Positions 17,765 through 29,924 of a stretch of 64,000 nt of DNA are shown piece after piece. The notes beneath the pieces were generated by a model, which saw only the letters and a program-made list of their open reading frames with translations, did no database searches and had not been told where the DNA came from. Numbering within the stretch: position 1 is the stretch's first letter; the number at the start of each line of letters is the position of its first letter. The stretch is from assembly GCF_039655875.1 (NCBI RefSeq), contig NZ_JBBYXK010000003.1, positions 310,001-374,000 of the forward strand. Reading direction: 5' to 3'. Made by a program: the position numbers and the translations under genes. This DNA comes from Emcibacter sp. SYSU 3D8. GTDB lineage: Bacteria > Pseudomonadota > Alphaproteobacteria > SMXS01.

Positions 17765-19150
17765 TTATTCGGCGGCCACGGCCGTATGCGGATTGCTCGG
17801 CACGGCGCGCTTGCCCTTGCCTTCGATGTATTCGTCGATGACCTCGTGGTAGCGGCGAATGCGCGCTTCCTGGCCCGACAGGTACACGCCCTTGAAGGCG
17901 CGGCTGCGGAAGCCAAGCTGCTGGCCGGTGGTCACGCCCATGTCCTGGTCGATCAGCAGGCCCAGGCTCTGCTCGCCGTAATTGAACACTTCGTGTTCCA
18001 CATCCTCGCCGGCCTTGAACACGCCGTTGGGCGTGTAGATCGGCGTGTCGAGATCCTTCGGCACCGGCGAGTACCACCAGTGGTCGAACACGCTCTGGGT
18101 CGGGTCGGTCGGGTGCGGCCGGGCGCGCAGGAAGTGGAAGCCCGTCGCCCACAGCGACACCGCGAAGTTGGGGAACAGGAAGTAGTGATAGACGTCGGTG
18201 AGCTGATGGTCGCGCAGGTTCTGGAAGTGGTTGTAGCCGCGTGACGGGCCCAGCTTGCGCATGGCCTGCTGGATGGCTTCGCGGGTCTCGTATTCGCGGC
18301 CGCCGCGGAACTCGTCGGGATCCAGCTCCCACAGGCGAAGCTGGCGCTCCAGCACCGGCTCGATCTTCACCTGGCCGCCGTTCCACTCCATCTGCTTCGA
18401 CGGCTTGCCCGACTGCATCCACATGCGGGCATGGCCCTCGGGCGCCATGTCGTACTGGGTCGACAGATAGCTTTCCTCGGTCTTGCCGGCCGCCTGCGGG
18501 TGAACCGTGGGCAGGTGATAGGATTCGTTGAAGTTGTCGATGATCACCTTCCAGTTGATCGGCGCGGTGCAGGTCTGCGCCAGATAGCGCTTCCAGTGAT
18601 CCATCTCGTAGGCCGACCATTCGTCCCACAGCGGGCCGAGATATTCCTGCAGCGACACGCAATCCGGGTCCATGTTGACCCAGATGAAGCCGGCGAACAC
18701 CTCGCAGCGGATCTCGTTCAGGGTCAGCTTGCCGCAGGGATCGCCCTCGGGGAAATCCTCGGGGTCCAGCGCGAAGGTCAGCTGGCCGTCGATTTCCCAG
18801 CGCCAGCCGTGATAGGGGCAGGTGAAGGCGTCGACCGTGCCAACATCGTTGAAGATCAGGCGGGCACCGCGGTGCTGGCACACATTGTAGAACGCGCGGA
18901 TGCCGCCGTCCTCCTGGCGCACCATCAGGATCGATTCCGGGCCGACCTCTTCCTGCTGGTAATCGCCGGTCTCGGGAATTTCGTCGGCGCGGCCGAGCAG
19001 CAGCCACACCTTGGTCCACATGTGTTCCCACTCCTCCTCGAAGAACTCCTTCGAGTGATAGCGGAAGCCCTCGATCTTGCTGCCCTTGAAGGTTGGCGCC
19101 GGATAGCGGGGCGCGGGCTCCTTGGCCCAGGCGGGATTCGGTGTGGTCAT
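17765..19150 (-). CDS. Rieske [2Fe-2S] ring-hydroxylating oxygenase, alpha subunit type
   Basis: A non-heme iron oxygenase component of about 461 residues. The Rieske cluster motif is CQHRGARL followed 16 residues later by CPYHGW (about 90-118). The mononuclear iron site is in NFNESYHLPTVHP (~205-217), with the two His ligands. No beta subunit, ferredoxin or reductase gene adjoins, which fits the alpha-only (homotrimeric) type of Rieske oxygenase. The ATG at 19150 was preferred because GGGGAG lies 8 bases ahead of it; an ATG six bases further upstream (19156) sits only 2 bases from that site. It is closely similar to the protein at 19633-21009 and ends in the same type of terminator. Substrate unknown. 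Confidence 0.95.
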   Translation of the reverse strand: MTTPNPAWAKEPAPRYPAPTFKGSKIEGFRYHSKEFFEEEWEHMWTKVWLLLGRADEIPETGDYQQEEVGPESILMVRQEDGGIRAFYNVCQHRGARLIFNDVGTVDAFTCPYHGWRWEIDGQLTFALDPEDFPEGDPCGKLTLNEIRCEVFAGFIWVNMDPDCVSLQEYLGPLWDEWSAYEMDHWKRYLAQTCTAPINWKVIIDNFNESYHLPTVHPQAAGKTEESYLSTQYDMAPEGHARMWMQSGKPSKQMEWNGGQVKIEPVLERQLRLWELDPDEFRGGREYETREAIQQAMRKLGPSRGYNHFQNLRDHQLTDVYHYFLFPNFAVSLWATGFHFLRARPHPTDPTQSVFDHWWYSPVPKDLDTPIYTPNGVFKAGEDVEHEVFNYGEQSLGLLIDQDMGVTTGQQLGFRSRAFKGVYLSGQEARIRRYHEVIDEYIEGKGKRAVPSNPHTAVAAE

Positions 19151-19273
19151 GGACATAACTCCCCGTGAATTGGTGCGCCATTATCGGTCCGGCGGCGCAT
19201 TTCTGTCACCTGTTGAGTCTGATAGTGCCTGCCGGCGGGTGAAACCGCCGGGCCCGCCGCTCGTTAACGTCAC

Positions 19274-19632: not shown

Positions 19633-21009
19633 TTATTCCGCCGCGATGGCGCTCGAGCGCTTCGGCGCGGGGCGCTTGCCCTCGATATATTCGTCGATCA
19701 CCTCGTGATAGCGCCGGATGCGGTGCTCCTGCTTCGCCAGGTACACGCCCTTGTAGGCGCGGCTGCGGAAGCCCAGCTGCTGTCCGGTGGTGATGCCCAT
19801 GTCCTGGTCGATCAGGGTCGACAGGCTGCGGTCCAGATAGTTGAACACCTCGTGCTCGACCTCGGCGTCACGCTCGACCGGGCCGTTGATGGTCATCACC
19901 GGCGTGGTCAGGCCCTCGGGCGCCGGCGCGTACCACCAATTGTCGAACAGGCACTGGCCCGGATCGGTCGGGTGCGGCCGGGCGCGCAGGAAGTGGAAGC
20001 CGTCCGCCCACACCGACACCGCGAAGTTCGGGAAGATCGTGTAGTGGTAGGTATCGGTAAGCTGATGGTCCTTGAGGTTGTCGAACTGGGTGTAGCCCAT
20101 CTCCTTGCCCTTTTCCCGCATGGCCTTCTGCAGCGCCTCGCGGGTCTCGAACTCGCGGCCGCCCCGGAAATCGTCGGGATCAAGACCCCACTGTTCCAGC
20201 AGGAACGCCAGGCCGGGCTTCAGCAATTCGTCGTCGCCGCGCTTGGCCAGCGAATGCGACGGCGTGCCCGACTGCATCCACATGCGGTTGTGACCCTCTT
20301 CCGACATGTCGAACTGGGTCCACTGGTAGTTTTCCTCGACCACGCCGTCGACCTGCGGATGCACGGTCGGCAGGTGATAGGATTCGTTGAAATTGTCGAG
20401 CACCACTTTCCAGTTGCACGGCACCGTCGCGGTCAGCGCCAGGTAGCGCTTCCAGGTGTGGATCTCGTAGGCGTTCCAGTCGTCCCAGATCGGGCCGAGA
20501 TAGTCCTTCAGCGGCACGCAGTCCGGATCCATGTTGACCCAGATGAAACCGGCGAAGGTGTCGCAGGGGATCTCGTTCAGGGTCAGCTTGCCGCACGGGT
20601 CGCCCTCGGGGAAATCCTCGGGGTCGAGCGCGAAGGTCAAGGTGCCGTCGATCTCCCAGCGCCAGCCGTGATACGGGCAGGTAAAGGCGTCGACCGTGCC
20701 CAGCTCGTTGAACACCAGGCGGGCGCCGCGATGCTGGCACACATTGTAGAAGGCGCGGATGCCGCCATCGGCCTGGCGCACCATCAGGATGGATTCGGGG
20801 CCGACCTCTTCCTGCTGGTAGTCGCCGACTTCCGGGATCTCGTCCTCGCGGCCCAGCAGCAGCCATACCTTGGTCCACATGTTCTCCCACTCGTCATGGA
20901 AGAATTCCTTGGAATGATAGCGGTAGCCCGGGATGGTCTGACCCTTGAGATGCGGCTCTGACCACTTCTCGGCGGGCTGTGCGTACCAGGCGGCGTTATG
21001 GACGGTCAT
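19633..21009 (-). CDS. Rieske [2Fe-2S] ring-hydroxylating oxygenase, alpha subunit type
   Basis: A 458-residue paralogue of the protein at 17765-19150. The Rieske motif CQHRGARL...CPYHGW and the catalytic iron motif NFNESYHLPTVHP are identical in both, and long stretches such as the DPEDFPEGDPCGKLTLNEI block are shared. This suggests a tandem duplication followed by divergence, mostly in the C-terminal substrate domain. The ATG at 21009 has GGGGAG nine bases upstream. It is divergent from a LuxR-type gene (205-base gap) that may regulate it. Electron-transfer partners must be encoded elsewhere. Confidence 0.95.
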   Translation of the reverse strand: MTVHNAAWYAQPAEKWSEPHLKGQTIPGYRYHSKEFFHDEWENMWTKVWLLLGREDEIPEVGDYQQEEVGPESILMVRQADGGIRAFYNVCQHRGARLVFNELGTVDAFTCPYHGWRWEIDGTLTFALDPEDFPEGDPCGKLTLNEIPCDTFAGFIWVNMDPDCVPLKDYLGPIWDDWNAYEIHTWKRYLALTATVPCNWKVVLDNFNESYHLPTVHPQVDGVVEENYQWTQFDMSEEGHNRMWMQSGTPSHSLAKRGDDELLKPGLAFLLEQWGLDPDDFRGGREFETREALQKAMREKGKEMGYTQFDNLKDHQLTDTYHYTIFPNFAVSVWADGFHFLRARPHPTDPGQCLFDNWWYAPAPEGLTTPVMTINGPVERDAEVEHEVFNYLDRSLSTLIDQDMGITTGQQLGFRSRAYKGVYLAKQEHRIRRYHEVIDEYIEGKRPAPKRSSAIAAE

Positions 21010-21214
21010 GCGGTCGGTCTCCCCGTTCGGTCTTGCGTGGCGCCAATATGCCACAGGTTGACGCGGTCAGGCGAGACCATCGCTGCACATACGTTTAATT
21101 TGCCGCTGCATCCGTGCAATCAAAGCCATCCGGTGACCGGTCGTGGTTCGTGACGCACGGCAGGCGCTTCGCTATCATCAGGCCCAGCGCGTTGACTTCA
21201 AAGGGGAGACAGAC

Positions 21215-24913: not shown

Positions 24914-25915
24914 CTAGAAGCGCATGGGCAGAGACATGCCGATTGTCACGTCGGGACTGTCCGGCGTCACGCCGAACGCTCCGCTGACAGTTAGGAAGAC
25001 GTTCCGGCTCAGCACGACGCCGACTCCCAGTTCAACCGCTCCTTGGGTTTCCCGGGTGCCGGGAAGTTTGGTGCCGCCAACGGCAGCCCGGCCTTCAAAT
25101 GAAAAATTGAACCCGGTGTTCAACGAGATGTCAGGCGTTACCGCCAGGCTGACGCCAACATTGAGGCCGAAGATCCCGCTGCGGTCCAGGTCGATGCCCC
25201 GGATCGTCTCCCCGATGAAGTCGGAATAGCTGGCAGTGCCATAGAAAGCGATCGGCGCGATGCTCCTGGTAACGGATAACTGGCCGGTCAGCACGTGAAA
25301 GCCGTTGCCCAGGGGCACGGGCGTGGACCCGAAATCTGCGCCCGTCGGCGCCGTATAGCGGACGCTCGCCACCACCGAGGGACGGTTTTCGGTCTGGCTC
25401 AAGAGCGACTTCCAGACCGTGAACGACACGTCTCCCAGGCCGGTGTTGTTCCCGCCGGCGGGCGCCTCACGGTGCAGTAGCGGAACACTGGCTCCCACCA
25501 TCCAGCCGCCCTTGAGACCGGCCCGGGCATCAAGGCCCAGGCCATAAATGTTCTGGGCGGGGGCCATGAATCCGCCGCCGGCCCGGCTCCAGACGAGACT
25601 GGGTGCCACCTCGATGATTCCAGGCGGCAGGACGGCGGTGCCACGGCGCACCAGGGTTCTTTCCAGCGCCCTGTCCTGTTCGGGGTCGTCCGCTTCGAAT
25701 CTGGGTGCATCGGCGGACGCCGCCGGTGGTGGAATCTTGCGGCCGCCAAGCTCGGCCTCGAGGGTCTCTATCCGCTGTTTCAACAATCCGTTGATCTGTT
25801 TCTGCGCCGCCAGCTCGGCCTTTACCTGTTCAAGCGTCTCGGCGGCAGCCGGGCCCGCCGCGCAAAGGCACGCGCAGGTCAGCAGCAGAAGCACGATGCG
25901 ATAACACCCTGTCAC
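24914..25915 (-). CDS. Outer-membrane beta-barrel with N-terminal coiled coil (FapF-like)
   Basis: A 333-residue exported protein. It has a signal peptide (residues ~1-25, ending AGPAAAE), then a heptad-like coiled coil (~27-60: LEQVKAELAAQKQINGLLKQ and on), a Pro-rich linker, and from ~95 a run of amphipathic strands typical of a 10-14-stranded barrel, ending in MSLPMRF with the terminal Phe of outer-membrane proteins. This layout, a periplasmic coiled coil plus barrel, is that of FapF, the amyloid-exporting pore of Pseudomonas, and of general 'transporter' barrels. It overlaps the upstream C39 peptidase gene by 4 bases, so the two are translationally coupled. FapF-like is inferred from architecture and neighbour, not from alignment. 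Confidence 0.85.
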   Translation of the reverse strand: MTGCYRIVLLLLTCACLCAAGPAAAETLEQVKAELAAQKQINGLLKQRIETLEAELGGRKIPPPAASADAPRFEADDPEQDRALERTLVRRGTAVLPPGIIEVAPSLVWSRAGGGFMAPAQNIYGLGLDARAGLKGGWMVGASVPLLHREAPAGGNNTGLGDVSFTVWKSLLSQTENRPSVVASVRYTAPTGADFGSTPVPLGNGFHVLTGQLSVTRSIAPIAFYGTASYSDFIGETIRGIDLDRSGIFGLNVGVSLAVTPDISLNTGFNFSFEGRAAVGGTKLPGTRETQGAVELGVGVVLSRNVFLTVSGAFGVTPDSPDVTIGMSLPMRF

Positions 25916-26466
25916 GGATCACCCCTCCGCATGACGAAAGCCATCCCGCCCATCCATGCCTCCTCGAATTTGTCCCGGCTCAAGGTACGATTTCCATAGG
26001 CGGGATCGGCCAGCCTGACCCGGCCCTTTGGTGTCAGGCCAGCGAAAACCACGTAGTGGTTGTAGCCATGCACCTTTATGGGAACGATGGGGCCGTCGAA
26101 ATGCCGGATGTCCTCGATCGTCATGCCTTTGAACCCAATGGCCCGGTATCCGCGCTCTTCGACGTAGCGTTTCATGTCGAGCATGGAGAATCCGCCGCGA
26201 TGACGGACCTTCAGCGGCTCGGTCTGGCGCAGCAGACCCCCCGCCACTTCCTGCTCGGAAACAGGATCGTTGAAATGATAGGTCAGAACCGTGGCGATGG
26301 CAGCGGCGCCGCAGCTGGTGTCCCATTTCTGGATCACCACGCCGGCCTCGCGCATTTCCTTGAGCGACCGGGTTCCTGTCGCCGCAGCGGACGGGATCGT
26401 CCCGGCGATGGCAAAAGCGGCAACGAGGACTATGCCTGCAAGCCTTTTCAGGAAATCATGCACCAC
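25912..26466 (-). CDS. Periplasmic C39-family cysteine peptidase (FapD-like)
   Basis: A 184-residue exported peptidase. A Sec-type signal peptide (residues ~1-29, ending PSAAA) is followed by the complete C39 triad: Cys52 in WDTSCGAAA, His137 in GYNHYVVF and Asp154 in LADPAYGN. C39 peptidases cut behind double-glycine leaders. Most are fused to ABC exporters, but stand-alone periplasmic ones occur in fap amyloid operons (FapD). Here the gene lies between a small exported protein carrying a Gly-Gly motif, its likely substrate, and a FapF-like barrel. It overlaps the latter by 4 bases (ATGA). The enzyme should be active judging from the intact triad. Confidence 0.92.
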   Translation of the reverse strand: MVHDFLKRLAGIVLVAAFAIAGTIPSAAATGTRSLKEMREAGVVIQKWDTSCGAAAIATVLTYHFNDPVSEQEVAGGLLRQTEPLKVRHRGGFSMLDMKRYVEERGYRAIGFKGMTIEDIRHFDGPIVPIKVHGYNHYVVFAGLTPKGRVRLADPAYGNRTLSRDKFEEAWMGGMAFVMRRGDP

Positions 26467-26477
26467 AGACGCAGTTC

Positions 26478-26517
26478 AAAAAGAGAAGGCGGCATCGACG
26501 CGCGCCAATACCGCCTT
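26478..26517 (-). terminator. Candidate intra-operon attenuator
   Basis: On the minus strand AAGGCGG and CCGCCTT form a 7-bp stem with an 18-base loop, followed directly by CTCTTTTT. It lies between the stop of the small Gly-Gly protein gene (26579) and the start of the C39 peptidase gene (26466). A partial terminator here would make the substrate more abundant than its processing and export machinery. Confidence 0.5.
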
Positions 26518-26578
26518 CAAGGCCGAAGCTGCAAACGCACGGGTGCGTCTGCATTGAGCCAGGCCAGGTCTCCGGAGA

Positions 26579-26989
26579 TCACGGAAGGTTCAGGTTAACC
26601 GTAACGAACCTCGCACCGTGGCCCTTGCCGACCAGGGTCGCATCAACGGTAAGCAAGCCTGGCGGAAGAGGGACAGGCAGAGTGACGCCAACGTCAACAT
26701 CCTGAACGGACGTGACGCCTTCATTGTTCGGGCCCTCTCCAGCATACATCTTCCCGCCCTGTGTCGGCTTGTCGATCGTTTTGTAGATCGGGTTCCCGTT
26801 GGTATCCGTGCCAATGACTTTTCCGGTGACGAGGTACCTGGCGATCACTTGGCCACCCACAACGCTGTCCATTTGCGTGTCGGAAAGCATCATGGGACCG
26901 CTAGCGTTCTGCGGCGTCAGGTCGCCTGCCAGCGCGGGTGCGGCAGCAAGGCAAAGGCCCACGGTCAGTAGTGATATCTTGGTTCGCAT
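26579..26989 (-). CDS. Small Sec-exported protein with leader-like Gly-Gly motif (putative secreted substrate)
   Basis: A 136-residue protein with no family that I can name. It has a clear signal peptide (MRTKISLLTVGLCLAAAPALAG, cleavage after residue ~21). Some 15 residues later comes MLSDTQMDSVVGG, which follows the pattern of double-glycine leaders (LS..QMD.V.GG) recognised by C39 peptidases. The remainder (~90 residues) is free of Cys and rich in Gly, Val, Thr, Asn and Pro, with a repeated VDVGVTLPVPLP / LLTVDATLVG strand pattern and end VTVNLNLP. The adjacent C39 peptidase gene makes it the probable substrate: Sec export first, then cleavage behind GG in the periplasm. ATG at 26989 was chosen for its GGGAG site and signal peptide. 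Confidence 0.82.
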   Translation of the reverse strand: MRTKISLLTVGLCLAAAPALAGDLTPQNASGPMMLSDTQMDSVVGGQVIARYLVTGKVIGTDTNGNPIYKTIDKPTQGGKMYAGEGPNNEGVTSVQDVDVGVTLPVPLPPGLLTVDATLVGKGHGARFVTVNLNLP

Positions 26990-28547: not shown

Positions 28548-29924
28548 ATGAATATCCAGAACCCTCAGGCTTTGAAACCCGGCGAGGCGCGTTGCCCCGG
28601 GCCCAGCACCAGGGACCTGATCCTGCGCGATGGCTGGCAGGTGCCGGCGGCGCTGATCGCCGAGGATTATACGTTCCTCGGTGACGACGACATGCCGTAT
28701 GAGCGCTATACCTCCGAGGCGTTCTTCCATGCCGAGATCGACCGGATGTGGAACCGCACCTGGCAATGGGCCTGCAGGGAAGAGCATATTCCCGAAGTGG
28801 GCGACCATTATGTCCACGATGTGGGGCCATATTCGATCCTGGTCGCGCGCGTCGCCCCTGGCGAGGTGAAGGCGTTCGTCAATTCCTGTCTGCACCGGGG
28901 CACCCAGCTGCGCCCATCGGACAGTGTCGGCAGCGTCATGCAGTTTCGCTGCCCGTTCCACGGCTGGACGTGGAACCTGGACGGCAGCCTGAAGGAAATT
29001 CCCTGCCGCTGGGATTTTCCCAAGGTTACCGACGAGGACTACCGCCTGCCCGAGGTGAAGGTGGCGCGCTGGGGCGGGTTCATCTGGATCAACATGGACG
29101 AGAACGCCGGGCCGCTGGCGGACTATCTCGGCCCCCTGGCGGAGCACCTGTCGGGCCGCTGGGACCTGTCGAGGCGCTACGTGGCCGTCCATATCCAGAA
29201 GATTCTGCCGGCCAACTGGAAGGCGTCGCAGGAAGCGTTCCTCGAGGCCTATCACGTCCTCGAAACCCATCCGCAGTCCATGCCCATCACCAGCGACGCC
29301 AATTGCCAGTACGACACGTTCAGCGACAAGGTGACGCGCTTCGTACATACGGTCGGCATCCAGAGTCCCCATTACCCGGTCGAGCAGACCGAGCAGGAGA
29401 TCATCGGCAAGATGCGCTTTGCGCCGCGCGATGTGACCTTGAAGGAGGGCGAGACCGCGCGCGCCGTGGCCGCCCAGTTCCTGCGCGAGACCATGGGCGC
29501 CGAGTTCAGCATCGACCTCAGCGCCTACAGCGACAGCGAGATGCTCGATTCGATCGAATACCACCTGTTCCCGAACATGTTTTTCTTCCCGGGCGTGTCG
29601 TTGCCCATGCTCTACCGCTTCCGGCCCAACGGCATGGATGTGGACAGCGCGATTTTCGACCTGATGCTTCTACGGCCGCTGGCCGACGGCCAGGCATTGC
29701 CCGAGGCGCCCGCGCCGATCAGACTGGACGTCAAGCAATCCTATACCGAGGCAGCGGGGCTCAACCCGTTGCTGGGCGCGGTCTATGACCAGGACACCAT
29801 GAATCTGGACATGCAGCAGAAGGGCTTCAAGGCGTCGCGCAAGCGGGGCCAGACCCTGGGCAACTACCAGGAAATCCGCATTCGGCGCATACACAAGACG
29901 CTGGACGCCTATCTGGCCGAGTAG
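28548..29924 (+). CDS. Rieske [2Fe-2S] ring-hydroxylating oxygenase, alpha subunit type
   Basis: A 458-residue Rieske oxygenase, clearly more distant from the pair at 17765 and 19633 than those are from each other. The Rieske cluster motif is CLHRGTQL followed 17 residues later by CPFHGWTW (~113-143). The mononuclear iron motif is SQEAFLEAYHVLETHPQ with both His (~228-244). The final residues (IRIRRIHKTLDAYL) correspond to the end of alpha-only family members. No reductase or ferredoxin gene adjoins. It is divergent from a TetR gene, which suggests its own substrate-controlled expression, independent of the polysaccharide locus that starts just downstream. Confidence 0.95.
   Translation: MNIQNPQALKPGEARCPGPSTRDLILRDGWQVPAALIAEDYTFLGDDDMPYERYTSEAFFHAEIDRMWNRTWQWACREEHIPEVGDHYVHDVGPYSILVARVAPGEVKAFVNSCLHRGTQLRPSDSVGSVMQFRCPFHGWTWNLDGSLKEIPCRWDFPKVTDEDYRLPEVKVARWGGFIWINMDENAGPLADYLGPLAEHLSGRWDLSRRYVAVHIQKILPANWKASQEAFLEAYHVLETHPQSMPITSDANCQYDTFSDKVTRFVHTVGIQSPHYPVEQTEQEIIGKMRFAPRDVTLKEGETARAVAAQFLRETMGAEFSIDLSAYSDSEMLDSIEYHLFPNMFFFPGVSLPMLYRFRPNGMDVDSAIFDLMLLRPLADGQALPEAPAPIRLDVKQSYTEAAGLNPLLGAVYDQDTMNLDMQQKGFKASRKRGQTLGNYQEIRIRRIHKTLDAYLAE

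Follow-up and report, generated by a model that had tools for sequence, protein, structure and literature searches.

The genome of Emcibacter sp. SYSU 3D8 contains a cassette of three minus-strand genes, encoding a small substrate, a C39 peptidase and an outer-membrane barrel. The small protein carries a double-glycine-type leader directly behind a Sec signal peptide, which raises the question of whether the two neighbouring genes provide a route for its processing and export. The cassette occupies positions 24914-26989 of the window, by which we mean the whole 64-kb stretch of DNA analysed (NZ_JBBYXK010000003.1, positions 310,001-374,000). The list of open reading frames and their translations agree with an earlier note on this DNA as to the positions of the three genes, with the C39 and barrel genes sharing 4 bases (GTGA). 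We consider, with a probability of roughly three in four, that the cassette is a FapD/FapF-type substrate together with its machinery, in which the substrate would cross the inner membrane by Sec, be cut in the periplasm by the C39 peptidase and exit through a FapF-like channel. Its features are:

26927..26989, minus strand: Sec signal peptide of the substrate, residues 1-21 (read from the translation; cleavage point by eye)
26852..26926, minus strand: double-glycine-type leader, residues 22-46, ending LSDTQMDSVVGG (from the translation; leader shared with a paralogue, the related genome G004 and 143 ORFs from related loci)
26582..26851, minus strand: putative mature substrate, 90 residues (QVIARYL...NLNLP), with no Pfam or NCBIfam match
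26485..26518, minus strand: intrinsic terminator between the substrate and C39 genes (15-pair stem, T-rich tail; folding z-score -4.98)
25912..26466, minus strand: stand-alone exported C39 peptidase of the FapD/FilB type, 184 aa (PF03412 5.1e-15; Q/C/H/D residues present)
24914..25915, minus strand: predicted FapF-like outer-membrane channel, 333 aa (FapF phmmer 1.6e-9; model pLDDT 86.9; FapF Z 30.7)

The substrate ORF (26579-26989, minus strand, 136 aa) translates as MRTKISLLTVGLCLAAAPALA, followed by GDLTPQNASGPMMLSDTQMDSVVGG and then QVIAR..., and the motif behind the Sec signal, LSDTQMDSVVGG, can be written as L(-12)-x3-Q(-8)-M(-7)-x2-V(-4)-x-G(-2)-G(-1). It follows the pattern L(-12)x3[EQ](-8)[LM](-7)x2[VI](-4)xG[GA] and adjoins a C39 gene. 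The C39 leader consensus in print is L(-12)x3E(-8)L(-7), V(-4) and GG, and its spacing and binding positions equal those of the window leader (PMC6363468, cited, like the other papers below, from the portion of its text available to us). The leaders of the PCAT/AMS ABC transporters (ComA, LahT) have this same spacing (PMC6363468), but in these proteins the C39 domain is fused to the ABC transporter and faces the cytoplasm, whereas the C39 in the window is separate, exported and would act after Sec in the proposed route. Using a home-made rule to detect signal peptides, we found that a strict combination of signal peptide and motif selects a single ORF in the 64-kb window, the substrate itself; a looser leader pattern selects two ORFs each in the window and in the reversed loci. 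The structure predicted for the substrate from a 3-row alignment was uninformative (mean pLDDT 31.8) and provides no evidence of disorder.

A scan of 84,980 species genomes yielded 78 related C39 loci. The strict rule for the AG class of leader, a signal peptide followed by [LM][STDN]x3[ML]Dx[VI]x[GA][GA], retrieved 143 ORFs in 57 of these loci, compared to none in the same loci reversed and 0, 0 and 0 in three codon-shuffled versions. The ORFs cluster around the peptidase gene: 122 are no more than 2 kb away from the C39, 118 share its strand, and a single locus contains at most five. Their density up to 2.5 kb from the C39 is 10.9 times that at greater distances. The earlier description of a Sec-exported 136-residue protein with a leader-like motif right behind its signal was therefore borne out, as these controls rule out chance. 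The leader ends in Ala-Gly in 127 of the 143 ORFs and in Gly-Gly in six. Columns that the rule does not set are also conserved, with Pro at -15 in 98/143 and Gln or Glu at -8 in 120/143, and conservation drops to background directly after the AG. We rejected the idea that the leader is part of a folded domain: its conserved columns, several of which the rule itself sets, hold 1.7-4.6 bits, and every column after the AG holds 0.2-0.7. In the leader alignment of the related loci the GG closes the conserved block, and the concern that it might lie inside a conserved folded domain has thus fallen away. Substrate, C39 and barrel genes follow in this order on one strand in 37/78 loci, many of which are on short contigs, and a two-sequence profile finds the barrel in 70/81 loci, a set that counts one G004 contig twice (L002 = L014). 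No family of Pfam or NCBIfam matches more than one of the 55 substrates that were scanned.

The C39 gene encodes, as first read, a stand-alone exported peptidase with an intact Cys/His/Asp triad. It matches PF03412, and the residues Q46, C52, H137 and D154 are present, as they are in 127 of a comparison set of 129 C39s that includes the window's own. Against the family models it scores 3.6e-31 for FilB (NF050078; 108.5 bits against a cut-off of 475) and 2.3e-30 for FapD (NF058616; 105.5 against 330). Because the FapD equivalog cut-off is missed, these scores identify the protein as a relative of FapD and FilB and not as FapD itself. In the route that we infer, Sec would carry the precursor over the inner membrane and signal peptidase would remove residues 1-21, after which the periplasmic C39 would bind the exposed leader at L(-12), M(-7) and V(-4) and cleave it behind the Gly-Gly. 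The C39 might instead serve as a periplasmic chaperone or tether, which binds the leader and hands the substrate to the barrel with no cut. This would give the same leader pattern, and some C39-like domains of T1SS are non-catalytic (PMC5557850, PMC6363468). We think such a role quite unlikely, since the catalytic Cys is found in 129/129 C39s and His and Asp in 127/129 (with gaps at these places in the other two rows), a small residue occupies -2 in every leader class, and the C38A mutant of FapD abolishes FapC secretion (PMC5557850).

In a phmmer search of PDB sequences the barrel matched FapF at 1.6e-9, with no row for the COG4313 uptake channel 4rl8 up to E 10. Against family models it scored far below the cut-offs for both FapF (41.3 bits; cut-off 700) and FilC (28.2; cut-off 630), and it matched PF13557 at 1.2e-6, above the Pfam cut-off. 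The protein begins with a signal peptide, and its AlphaFold model (mean pLDDT 86.9; 23 sequences in the alignment) predicts a helix at 28-58, a plug-like helix at 78-90 and a beta-barrel at about 100-333. The heptads of helix 28-58, which is predicted in the monomer, appear coiled-coil-like by eye, in keeping with the N-terminal coiled coil that the earlier note had placed ahead of the barrel. The model superposes on FapF with a Z score of 30.7 and an rmsd of 1.9 over 250 residues (model residues 80-333), and because the alignment begins at residue 80 the plug-like helix is included; 4rl8 follows next, at Z 27.0. The comparison with FapF that had been called for thus places the barrel closest to FapF and not with an unrelated porin family, and on the evidence of the model it is a FapF relative that shares the predicted FapF-type fold, including the plug helix.

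The resemblance to 4rl8 suggests another explanation, in which the barrel takes up hydrophobic compounds as a channel of the COG4313/Phenol_MetA_deg type and the small protein is periplasmic and unrelated. The barrel does belong to the same superfamily as these channels, and the PF13557 match, the Z score of 27.0 and the presence of Rieske-type oxygenase frames in the window are all in line with uptake. FapF nevertheless scores higher in both searches, and the model has extra N-terminal and plug-like helices. The barrel gene also overlaps the C39 gene, and a FapF-like barrel lies within 4 kb of 124/129 C39s, whereas the channels of this family act in uptake and, in the available portion of PMC6173800, had not been reported with C39 partners. 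We regard the uptake reading as very improbable. Under the preferred reading, export by the FapF-like channel, the unfolded 90-residue mature chain would leave the periplasm through the barrel, and the coiled coil may gather the chain. The two-step route advanced at the outset remains the best reading and is supported by the relatives, where leaders lie beside C39 genes and the barrels are FapF-like; its steps are deduced from sequence.

The terminator behind the substrate gene, which the earlier note does not mention, recurs in the related loci, 17/33 of which have a strong one between the last substrate and the C39, compared to 0-1 in shuffled gaps; the reverse complement gave 9/33, consistent with near-symmetric hairpins, and the position after the C39 gave 1/33. 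Across the whole region there was no excess of terminator-like sites (4 versus 2.8 in shuffles). A terminator at this position should raise the substrate over the machinery, and so the substrate is probably made in excess. The TetR and MBL-rhodanese neighbours were considered as further parts of the cassette and rejected, as tblastn found no match to them in the available stretches of G004, L015 and L016 (the upstream side of G004 is off the contig). We likewise set aside a role in defence, PADLOC returning no match for four proteins, and an origin of the substrate from phages or plasmids, in which tblastn found no match to it at E 0.1. Rieske-type ring-hydroxylating oxygenase frames lie around the cassette, at 17765-19156 and 19633-21054 (by eye) and 28548-29924 (Pfam).

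A single FapD-type C39 is encoded in the genome from which the window comes. A genome-wide search for further Sec-exported leader proteins, as the earlier note had proposed, turned up an orphan paralogue on contig C1 (492839-493045 matched; L013 1354-1716, minus strand), which scores 45.8 bits against the leader profile and repeats the signal-leader plan of the window substrate, with VVAG as its ending. The surrounding 20 kb yielded neither a C39 nor a barrel, and the paralogue is probably a second client of the cassette. When 96 genomes were searched, 74 matched at E 0.1, most among the matches listed at the signal-peptide end only and a few at the leader end only. Above 40 bits there were three places in two genomes, the window's own twice and G079, each of which has a FapD-type C39; G016 came next at 28 bits, with no motif on inspection. 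A substrate above 40 bits was therefore present in 2/4 genomes with the C39 versus 0/92 of the others (Fisher, P 0.0013). The leader-profile search of 398 genomes, in which at most 18 candidates were scored in each, gave at least three genomes at E 1e-4, the window's own and two weak ones, and was judged uninformative. Close relatives rarely carry the cassette: the C39 occurs in 1/6 same-genus and 0/3 other same-family genomes. The single carrier, G004, has the same three-gene order, with the C39 70% and the barrel 53% identical to those of the window. Its substrate frame, at the contig edge (L002/L171 1-200), lacks a recognisable signal peptide, through either an assembly break or an insertion. 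The order is kept in G004, L015 and L016 amid other flanking genes, so the expected co-occurrence of the three genes holds for more distant genomes but is rare among close relatives (C39 in 1/9 same-family genomes).

The AG leader is one of several forms. Within an even phylum sample of 398 genomes, 43 had a C39 match at E 1e-10, the window's own included. From the 54 C39 matches in this sample we left out the window's own and six weak ones (E values between 2e-13 and 9e-11; frame lengths 408-1036 aa; probably of ABC type), and the remaining 47 fall in 45 fetched regions. In 45/45 loci a match to a FapF-like barrel, at E 1e-5 or lower, was found nearby. The strict AG leader was found in 0/45, which makes it a subclass. 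Many of these loci encode an exported protein that adjoins the C39 and has a leader of the same spacing ending in RGG, RGR, RGK or TGQ. Over the 129 C39s (both samples, the window's own, G004 and G079) the leaders were labelled AG in 60 cases, RG in 26, GQ in 6 and none in 37, with one match in the reversed control. The AG rule used here was slightly wider than that for the 143 ORFs, allowing Ala at -6, and the RG rule set only -7, -4 and -3 to -1; the RG and GQ patterns were devised after part of the data had been viewed. Several of the 37 unlabelled loci are at contig ends, and the 37 include four kept duplicates (L003/L055 and L086/L137, apparently the same contigs). A relaxed pattern, drawn up after viewing the unlabelled loci, recovers about 11 of them, with L079, L068, L161 and the second row of L132 doubtful, and five more were recognised by eye; L054, L082, L091, L152 and others have no leader protein even with the relaxed pattern or by eye.

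Positions outside the RG rule also agree with the leader pattern. In the RG class -12 is L/I/V/M/F in 29/32 rows, or 29/31 without a false row that is the barrel itself (L140 7224-8639), and Glu occupies -8 in 20/32, or 19/31 without that row; a hydrophobic residue is found at -12 in 6/6 GQ rows. On the C39 tree, which omits two rows under 120 aa, the AG, RG and GQ labels alone need three changes, the minimum for three states being two, and with the unlabelled rows 21 changes are needed compared to a shuffled mean of 58.2. Shared descent without recognition can also produce such clustering, and kinship inflates the counts, for example among Methylococcaceae, Shewanella and the fap loci.

The RG class includes FapE. 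At L144, a bona fide fap operon, FapD and FapF score above their cut-offs and flank a protein that the NCBI model identifies as FapE (345.5 bits, with a cut-off of 250). Its FapE N-terminus reads ...GFKPIELKDSEMAELRGRYV, and the leader has the same -12/-8/-7/-4/-2 pattern as that of the window. The FapE model matches 7/18 RG-class proteins scanned, of 33 RG rows. In the TGQ form, the protein at L141 has a Sec signal and a TGQ-type leader, and matches FilA below and DUF6160 above the cut-off. The scan behind the L144 and L141 identifications covered nine proteins, some of them outside the RG class. FilA belongs to the Fil putative pilus system (FilA, FilB, FilC), which has C39 and barrel relatives, although the FilB and FilC matches of the window are well below cut-offs. 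On balance we lean towards the view that FapD/FapF-type pairs form one pathway with a bipartite signal, Sec followed by a C39 leader read in the periplasm, that the leader has at least three forms (xAG, RG[GRK] and TGQ) tracking C39 clades, that FapE is a client and that the unit in the window is a stripped-down version. The window cassette would then be a recognisable form of the signal, with its relatives giving a series down to the RGR form of FapE.

The Fap system of Pseudomonas has an exported C39, a barrel with a plug and N-terminal coiled coil, and a Sec-exported client, all of which the sequence and the predicted fold suggest for the cassette too. The two differ in that the window substrate is unrelated to FapE past the leader, which ends in GG where that of FapE has RGR or RGK, and in that the equivalog models for FapD and FapF have cut-offs far above the scores of the window C39 and barrel. 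A library with a FapE model gave no match to FapE among five neighbouring proteins, and FapA, FapB and FapC were not seen among the window neighbours with this library, whose coverage of FapA-C is uncertain. The target of FapD has been called unclear and the Fap proteins were said to have no canonical C39 sequences (PMC5557850). The same work found that the FapD Cys is required for secretion and that the FapE N-terminus is processed; by mass spectrometry there were no peptides in the first ~70 residues of FapE, with FapC peptides throughout (PMC5557850). This gap is consistent with a cut at the leader block but does not place the cut there. A 2025 review states that FapD 'is thought to' process FapE and FapF (PMC12822426), and a docking paper contends to the contrary that FapD modifies FapC, not FapE (PMC10638192). 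If FapE is a client, the FapD recognition sequence would be [LIV]xxxE[LM]xx[LM]RG[RK] right behind the FapE signal peptide. This is a residue-level and directly testable prediction for the target of FapD, which is essential for Fap amyloid secretion (PMC5557850).

The machinery itself is of a known kind, because hints from FapD and FapF profiles, low in specificity, of larger families (2013; PMC3792158), colocalised fapD/fapF homologues outside Fap in five further phyla (2018; PMC6173800) and an island in Neisseria with a C39, a FapF-like channel and GG peptides (2025; PMC11798529) have been published. The suggestion that the system is undescribed consequently stands only in part: the C39/FapF-like architecture was already in print (PMC6173800, PMC11798529), but we found no description of Sec-plus-leader substrates or of the FapE leader in the available portions of the open-access literature, and the AG leader strings that were tried are in no paper of the open-access literature searched. 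The leader pattern offers a search tool for a class of unannotated exported proteins.

What the product does may also be approached through the nap island of Neisseria (NapP, NapF, NapA-C), compared here by the description of its parts: a C39, a FapF-like channel and small GG-motif proteins, with cleavage proposed to be periplasmic (PMC11798529). It is possible that the same machinery in the window delivers a peptide resembling Naps or microcins, which would act on cells through autolysis, killing or signalling. The shared kinds of parts favour this, as does the resemblance of the leaders to the bacteriocin type, for example ELSDEDLDGVAGG in G059. The Naps, however, are cationic and smaller than 10 kDa (PMC11798529), whereas the mature part in the window would have 90 residues and a net charge of 0. 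Mature parts of the AG class (median 76 residues) are rich in A/G/S/T (47%), and 59% are net negative and 31% net positive, with up to five such proteins in one locus. Inner-membrane crossing is also speculative in the nap system (PMC11798529), while the Sec signal of the window substrate is plain. We therefore consider a peptide of this type rather unlikely, and the product is most likely a structural or surface protein, which may or may not form the fibre that the earlier note suggested.

In G059 itself, the precursor that carries ELSDEDLDGVAGG (contig C4; L108/L168) has no signal peptide, and this leader of the same kind has another C39 domain ~2 kb away, within a frame of 516 residues that is probably an ABC transporter. 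At L123, L124, L127, L129, L128 and L131 the C39 is flanked on both sides by exported proteins with a leader-like block ending RGG, RGR or SGR, and perhaps there are two clients per machine at such loci. Several substrates at L064, L066 and L070 share, by eye, a QxNxSPVxxxQxNxL...SGN-like mature pattern that recalls amyloid-type repeats.
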